IMG/VR virus record: IMGVR_UViG_3300007071_000008
Location: 1-20,083 of that record
Strand: one strand, 5' to 3'
Length of the DNA: 20,083 nucleotides
From: a virus
In this document: in pieces, positions 13,746 through 14,599 of the stretch
How positions within the stretch are numbered: position 1 is the stretch's first letter
Layout: every line of letters begins with the position of its first letter
Program-made: the position numbers and the translations under genes
The notes under the pieces: generated by a model
The model's database searches: none
Seen by the model: the letters and a program-made list of their open reading frames with translations, nothing else
Told to the model about the DNA's origin: nothing

Positions 13746-14599
13746 GCGTGCAGGCCATGGAGGCCGTCCTGCGCTCCTCGCGCGCCAAGGGCTCGGAGCT
13801 GCTCGTGCTGCTGCTCGTCGCGAACCACGCCGGGAGCGAGGATCACTCGACCTGGGTGTCGGCGACCACCCTCGCCGCTGAGGCGCGGATGAGCGAGCGA
13901 CAGGTCCGCAGGATCCTCCAGCGGCTGGCCACCCCCGTCGAGGAGGGCGGCCTGGGCGAGCTCGAGATCACACCCCGGCCGGGTCGCCCCTCGGTGCTTC
14001 GCCTGCTGCTGCCCGGACAAGATGTCCGGGGTCCGGATGTCCGGCGTCCCGAGGGCCCCGAGCCCCAGATGTCCGCCACCCCGGACATAGCTATGTCCGG
14101 CACCCCGGACACAGCTATGTCCGACGAACCGTCTGAACCGTCAAGAACCGTCAGCTCTACCCCCCCAGCGAGAGACCTCCCTGCGGTCGGTCTCTCGCTT
14201 CCCCCCCAGGGGGGAGGCGCCCCCTCGGTGCCTCGTGTCCTCGAGCGCGACCGAGAGGTGGACCCGATCTTCGAGGCGCTGTACCTCCTCGAGGCTGGCG
14301 AGCCGTACACGCCCGAGGGCCGGCGCCGGCTCACGCGGAAGGCGGCCGCAGCCCTCAACGCCGCCGCGGCCGAGATCCGAGCCACGGGCATCTCGGCCGC
14401 AGAGCTCCGCGCGGCCATCGCCGCGTGGCCGCGCCTCATGGGGTCGGCCACGTGCACCGCCCACGCCGTGGCCAAGCACCTGCCGCGGCTGCTCGCCGCC
14501 GCCCGGGGCGTGGTCGCCTCCCGCGGGGAGCTCGACGAGGTGGCGGCCGAGGTCGAGCGGCGCCTGGCCTCCAGGGCCGTGGGGGTGGGCGGTGGCTGA
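13742..14599 (+). CDS. HTH replication-initiator-like protein
   Basis: A 285-residue protein from ATG 13742 (ATGA overlap). Residues 1-90 form a winged HTH_36-type domain: KGSELLVLLLVANHAGSEDHSTWVSATTLAAEARMSERQVRRILQRL, followed by a wing strand. Residues 90-170 are a Pro/Ser linker encoded by repeat-rich DNA (14014-14198). The C-terminal domain (about 175-285) is helical (FEALYLLEAGEPYTPEGRRRLTRKAA, WPRLMGSATCTAHAVAKHLPRLL). The order HTH, repeat-bearing linker, helical domain matches lambda O and actinophage Rep-like proteins. It likely binds the repeats in its own gene and recruits host replication proteins. No helicase or polymerase motif is present. Confidence 0.65.
   Translation: MSVQAMEAVLRSSRAKGSELLVLLLVANHAGSEDHSTWVSATTLAAEARMSERQVRRILQRLATPVEEGGLGELEITPRPGRPSVLRLLLPGQDVRGPDVRRPEGPEPQMSATPDIAMSGTPDTAMSDEPSEPSRTVSSTPPARDLPAVGLSLPPQGGGAPSVPRVLERDREVDPIFEALYLLEAGEPYTPEGRRRLTRKAAAALNAAAAEIRATGISAAELRAAIAAWPRLMGSATCTAHAVAKHLPRLLAAARGVVASRGELDEVAAEVERRLASRAVGVGGG
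14014..14152. other. Candidate replication origin: iteron-like repeats inside the initiator gene
   Basis: Eight copies of TGTCCG/CGGACA lie in 110 bases: forward at 14023, 14038, 14070, 14094 and 14118; reverse at 14014, 14082 and 14106. They pair into CCCGGACA-AGA-TGTCCGGG (14012-14030), a perfect 20-bp palindrome CCGGACATAGCTATGTCCGG (14081-14100) and a near-perfect one (14106-14123). Three copies of GAACCGTC follow at 14126, 14135 and 14145; the third is in another reading frame, so selection acts on DNA. Confidence 0.6.
14168..14198. repeat. 10-bp perfect inverted repeat next to the iterons
   Basis: GCGAGAGACC (14168-14177) and GGTCTCTCGC (14189-14198) are exact reverse complements around an 11-base loop. 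A C7-A-G6 stretch follows at once (14201-14214), a second tight inverted repeat. Together with the repeats just upstream they make a structured block of about 200 bases in the initiator gene. Confidence 0.75.

Follow-up and report, generated by a model that had tools for sequence, protein, structure and literature searches.

Background

In lambdoid phages the replication origin is embedded midway in gene O, whose initiator product is dimeric; the iterons lie beside an AT-rich tract, and two of them plus that tract make up the minimal unwinding unit (PMC7466680). In the plasmid RK2, the winged-helix initiator TrfA binds, besides the iterons, short repeats on one strand of the unwinding element (PMC4081077). 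Here we analyze a locus that compares closely with the first of these systems and, in one respect, with the second. It is carried by a complete IMG/VR record, linear and of 20,083 bp (the window), which is probably a fragment. A first-pass annotation had proposed that repeats inside one of its genes form an origin of the lambda O/ori design.

Results

The gene in question (13742-14599, plus strand) encodes a translation product of 285 aa, for which the AlphaFold2 model presents a confident winged-HTH domain (residues about 1-92), a disordered linker (residues 93-169) and a helical C-terminal domain (residues 175-282). HTH_36 (PF13730), the sole Pfam domain above its cut-off, matched the first 63 residues (E 9.9e-7, 28.9 bits versus a cut-off of 25). 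Six PHROG replication-initiation families also matched the protein, the best being phrog_8540 ("replication initiation O-like", E 3.2e-8), which covered the N-terminal domain only. On the basis of these profiles, we assign the protein to the HTH_36, replication-initiation O-like class. Since the N-terminal domain of lambda O (Phage_rep_O_N) was absent among its Pfam matches up to E = 1, we describe it as an initiator that probably works like lambda O and do not file it as a homologue of that family. A PDB sequence search yielded no significant match, and the fold search with the model returned generic winged helices only (Z about 8).

The DNA encoding the linker is the home of the repeats, with a peak at residues 91-133. 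All eight of the TGTCCG elements previously noticed in both orientations were located within 14014-14123 (TGTCCG or CGGACA starting at 14014, 14023, 14038, 14070, 14082, 14094, 14106 and 14118), and only nine more occur elsewhere in the 20-kb contig; the last five follow each other with a pitch of exactly 12 bp and alternating orientation. The upstream part of the array (14014-14043) is imperfect and comprises CGGACA-AGA-TGTCCG at 14014-14028 plus one TGTCCG at 14038-14043. It is followed by a single half-site (TGTCCG, 14070-14075, plus strand), which is in the 12-bp register of the perfect dyads and pairs with the element at 14082 as TGTCCG-N6-CGGACA. Only two iterons are perfect, both of them 18-bp dyads and 24 bp apart: CGGACA-TAGCTA-TGTCCG at 14082-14099, which is the core of the perfect 20-bp palindrome CCGGACATAGCTATGTCCGG (14081-14100) reported earlier, and CGGACA-CAGCTA-TGTCCG at 14106-14123. 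The full dyads have no further copy anywhere in the contig.

If the iteron is taken as CGGACA-N6-TGTCCG, the second dyad ends 3 bp before the first AACCGTC, a heptamer present three times in the contig and always within the three GAACCGTC repeats (14126-14152, plus strand; starts at 14126, 14135 and 14145). These are spaced by 9 and 10 bp, so that the third copy falls in another reading frame, as had been pointed out. The segment 14108-14147 is a local minimum of G+C content (52.5% versus a contig mean of 73.9%) and is among the six non-overlapping 40-bp stretches of lowest G+C; the GAACCGTC stretch itself (52-57% G+C) is not AT-rich, and folding analysis found no fold of its own. We regard the GAACCGTC repeats as the counterpart of an RAACCRTC element common to the relatives described below, and as a candidate for an unwinding or single-strand recognition element. 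Downstream of this stretch there is a perfect inverted repeat (AGCGAGAGACC/GGTCTCTCGCT, 14167-14199), whose arms (14167-14177 and 14189-14199) measure 11 bp rather than the 10 bp first given and which folds with z = -5.7; an inverted repeat at this place was not general among the relatives other than the one designated L002. The C7-A-G6 hairpin of the first-pass annotation exists as a sequence (14201-14214), but its one-base loop makes it a poor hairpin and the relatives give it no support, and it was discarded.

We compared these repeats with synonymous sequences in which the linker peptide was fixed and codons were drawn from the phage's own usage. None of 20,000 such sequences reached eight TGTCCG, a result that bears out the earlier assertion that DNA and not peptide is repeated, and eight copies of any hexamer appeared in only one of 20,000. 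The 114-bp repeat stretch is the most hexamer-repetitive of the whole contig, and permutation of codons within the initiator gene gave z = 10.8. The repetition in the window is thus beyond what the peptide needs.

Relatives were collected by several routes. The whole-protein search found a single one (L002, on a 38.8-kb viral contig), which was also the sole match in searches with the C-terminal domain and with the downstream gene. A search with the HTH alignment brought in 16 relatives from viral and 7 from genomic sequences; phage records searched by tblastn added others, carried by phages of Arthrobacter, Curtobacterium, Pseudomonas, Vibrio and Moraxella. In Arthrobacter phage Laila (L048), the initiator appears to be split into an HTH-plus-linker gene (1001-1531) and a separate C-terminal gene (1524-1871). 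Plasmid searches for a stand-alone replicon of the same type gave weak matches. For 32 distinct HTH_36 O-like genes of phages and prophages, the window included, we determined the most repetitive 130-bp stretch of each gene on both strands and compared it with synonymous-codon permutations. The densest repeats fell in the linker in all 32; they exceeded every one of 300 permutations in 29 genes, and the remaining three had P of 0.013 or less. The lambda O gene, used as positive control, behaved alike, with a peak (record positions 38986-39115, z 14.3) that lies over the annotated iterons at 39034-39118. The O-like gene came out on top of the 15 to 25 genes tested in each of Decurro, Root, Abidatro and the window; as a few other genes passed with low z, the statistic by itself lacks specificity. 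Only one gene of the contig besides the initiator scored strongly (z 8.0), a gene of no known function (8969-9814) that carries a DNA-level tandem repeat of about three copies coding for RRVSHAIGEAVARDPAPA.

The layout of the repeats was also shared. Inverted-repeat spans in the linkers peaked at 18 bp (34 versus 3.1 in the null), the iterons having six-base half-sites and a six-base spacer, as in GGTGAC-GCCAGT-GTCACC. The iteron-to-iteron pitch in the relatives was mostly 19, 23 or 24 bp, and exactly 19/24/23 in five genes (L009, L010, L012, L014 and L017). The RAACCRTC-like run comes after the iterons, and for each of the 16 relatives examined the offset from the last iteron to the start of the next AACC was 2 bp; in L012 and L026 this distance was set by inspection, the last iteron called by the script being there a weak spurious match. 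Pairs of AACC spaced 8-15 bp were present in 25 of the 32 linkers (null 6.3 +/- 2.0; maximum 12 in 300). Occurrences of the heptamer AACCRYC were spread over all three reading frames (27/18/7). The motif was looser in the Pseudomonas, Vibrio and Moraxella phages. Exact DnaA boxes (TTATCCACA) were found in the linkers of L015 (position 696) and L026 (position 3405) and a near-exact one in that of L007 (position 3321), while none lies near the gene of the window, whose contig count is at chance. The phage records examined for the relatives hold no origin annotation, and a literature search of open-licence papers, in which absence is weak evidence, yielded no account of origins of this kind for actinophages. 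Taken with the control and the matching iteron geometry, the repeats in the same linker of 31 relatives support the lambda O/ori design proposed at the outset.

The sequences of the iterons seemed to change together with the domain that would read them. L002 and the window are 79% identical in the C-terminal domain and have only remote similarity in the HTH (18/57 identities, E 0.016), and the linker repeats of L002 are entirely different, consisting of GCCGCAC dyads and a 17-bp inverted repeat placed where the window has its 11-bp one. The reading domain and the repeats therefore differ together in this pair, the rest being kept. Decurro and Laila represent the opposite case, their HTH being 91%, their C-terminal part 87% and their iterons 100% identical over 93 bp; this base-level comparison of initiator genes, in which iterons are nearly unchanged while flanks drift, runs counter to the lack of repeat conservation among close relatives by which the first-pass annotation expected its proposal to be refuted. 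Between Decurro and L017, the HTH is 81% identical and the iterons 49%, all L017 dyads having changed in concert. Moreover, about 45 bp of linker are inverted in Arielagos (L003 1861-1910) with respect to Decurro (L004 1850-1905; alignment score 58 reversed, 37 direct and at most 25 in shuffles), an event that rewrites the peptide and keeps the dyads. Among 13 genes without the window (13-14 genes), a small sample with half-sites assigned by eye, the recognition helix predicted the half-site when the rest of the HTH was allowed for (partial Mantel r 0.63, P 0.0006). These sequence comparisons indicate that the dyads track the recognition helix of the HTH in sequence, and that selection acts on the linker DNA and not on the peptide.

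The initiator gene overlaps a downstream gene (14592-15095, plus strand) for a 167-aa protein of no known family in Pfam or PHROG, which occupies the position of lambda P and is syntenic in L002, with 47% identity. No helicase or loader was recognisable among the window proteins scanned against the same databases; in JBD68, an AAA+ IstB/DnaA-like gene directly follows the O-like gene. A RusA-like Holliday junction resolvase gene (Pfam, PHROG) is located at 15490-15906 (plus strand), and a similar one adjoins the O-like gene in the Arthrobacter phages Abidatro and Kuleana, the neighbours in Abidatro being RusA, RecE/RecT and SSB. Elsewhere in the window, a homologue of the Gp3-like recombination-directionality factor (PF18897, E 8e-31) is encoded just upstream of the initiator (12502-13506), and a PAPS-reductase-like gene lies on the minus strand (17816-18541); phage C72C1 likewise carries such a gene in the vicinity of the O-like one (L036 59-733). 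The contig starts inside a gene for a P22-like coat protein (2-1150). The tail-fibre and baseplate domains matched by the C-terminal part of this protein suggest that the capsid protein is a decorated one.

Cumulative GC skew, proposed earlier as a check, agreed only in part: there is a local minimum at 14504, inside the initiator gene, but the contig as a whole has its minimum at 964. Block shuffles placed a minimum within 13700-14460 in 1.9% of cases, and the observed 14504 is just outside that interval. In Root the minimum falls on the element, but its position (14434) is close to the end of the genome, and the skews of Decurro, Abidatro and the L002 record were uninformative. The support of GC skew for an origin at the linker is weak.

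Discussion

We propose, with a probability of roughly 0.85, that the window carries a lambda-type replication origin inside the initiator gene, bound by the protein's own HTH domain and opened at the GAACCGTC stretch. The repeats themselves, the constraint at the DNA level, the conserved layout and the coupling of iterons to the recognition helix can be read by comparing sequences; from them we infer binding by the HTH, unwinding at GAACCGTC, recruitment of a helicase and origin activity. Dimers of the N-terminal winged-HTH domain would bind the palindromic iterons that lie in the protein's own linker DNA (14014-14123), and the core sites would be the two perfect 18-bp dyads nearest to the GAACCGTC repeats. 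The assembled complex would then open the adjacent stretch at 14126-14152, and the C-terminal helical domain would bring the replicative helicase, directly or via a loader. That the RAACC repeats have a reader and are unwound is presumed in this scheme.

The main rival is that the dyads are an intragenic operator through which the HTH protein controls transcription of its own gene, replication starting elsewhere. The evidence for binding sites would fit any DNA target of an HTH domain, and the modelled fold resembles general winged-helix regulators. However, the profiles point to a replication initiator, and no sigma-70-like promoter appeared in 13500-14700, although this is a weak test. An operator would also leave unexplained the adjacent RAACC repeats with their independence of frame, the lambda-like pitch and the DnaA boxes of two relatives, and we consider it unlikely. 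Another cis site bound by the initiator, for partition, packaging (pac) or recombination, seems to us more improbable still: in its favour the protein matches a terminase small subunit very weakly (phrog_57, E 0.65), but the six PHROG replication-initiation families match better, and the neighbours in the relatives are recombination and replication genes, as illustrated by Abidatro.

It could also be argued that the repeats merely encode a repetitive peptide or arose by slippage, the DNA having no function of its own, since repetition is also seen in the linker peptide (TPDIAMSGTPDTAMS), which the model shows as disordered. Against this stand the synonymous nulls, which were exceeded, the presence of copies in either orientation and in each of the three frames, iterons that stay unchanged while their flanks drift, and an inversion that alters the peptide and keeps the sites. 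We give this explanation hardly any credence.

Returning to the origin inside the initiator gene, a broader reading of the RAACCRTC repeats can be put forward tentatively, at somewhat less than even odds. They might represent a class of elements, for unwinding or for single-strand recognition, that are usable in GC-rich DNA and common to HTH_36 phage initiators across several bacterial phyla. The iterons would then be free to change, and the origin would combine a variable address with a common opening element; the reader would be equally common, perhaps the conserved part of the initiator, the helicase or its loader, or a host factor. The parts of these results that deserve a second look from a specialist are the conserved second element that is not AT-rich and the lambda-like pitch in unrelated phages.

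Should the proposed origin be correct, the origins of many poorly studied phages could be read from sequence by going from the O-like gene to its linker, and the lambda layout would extend, down to the iteron pitch and with unrelated iterons, to actinobacterial and other phages. A recognition code between winged-helix initiators and their sites could be studied on a data set provided by nature, and attention would be drawn to a common repeat beside the iterons.

The closest comparison is with O and ori-lambda. In both, the repeats are in mid-gene, between the DNA-binding and C-terminal domains of the initiator, and the iterons are 18-bp palindromes with almost the same pitch (20/24/23 in lambda and 19/24/23 in relatives of the window). 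The order is likewise the same, from iterons to an unwinding stretch (a candidate in the window) and then to an inverted repeat, which in lambda comes after the AT-rich tract, and in both the iteron sequence varies between phages. Moreover, as in the lambdoid minimal unit, where two iterons stand by the AT-rich tract, the two dyads next to GAACCGTC are the perfect ones. Unlike lambda, the window has an HTH_36 domain, an unrelated iteron sequence and no recognisable P gene, belongs to a phage with 74% G+C and presents, by position, RAACCRTC repeats in place of the AT-rich tract. The O-like HTH_36 proteins encoded by the actinophages Decurro, Root, Abidatro and Kuleana, like those of phages of Pseudomonas, Vibrio and Moraxella, share with the window the N-terminal domain, the position of the repeats and the RAACC-type element; they differ in iteron sequences, and their C-terminal domains vary between groups. 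RK2 TrfA is a precedent for repeats read single-stranded by a winged-helix initiator, although in a plasmid instead of a phage and with AT-rich 13-mers as the unwinding repeats. The window is thus a new case of the known lambda-type design, and its least expected part is the RAACC repeat that stands beside the iterons instead of an AT-rich tract.
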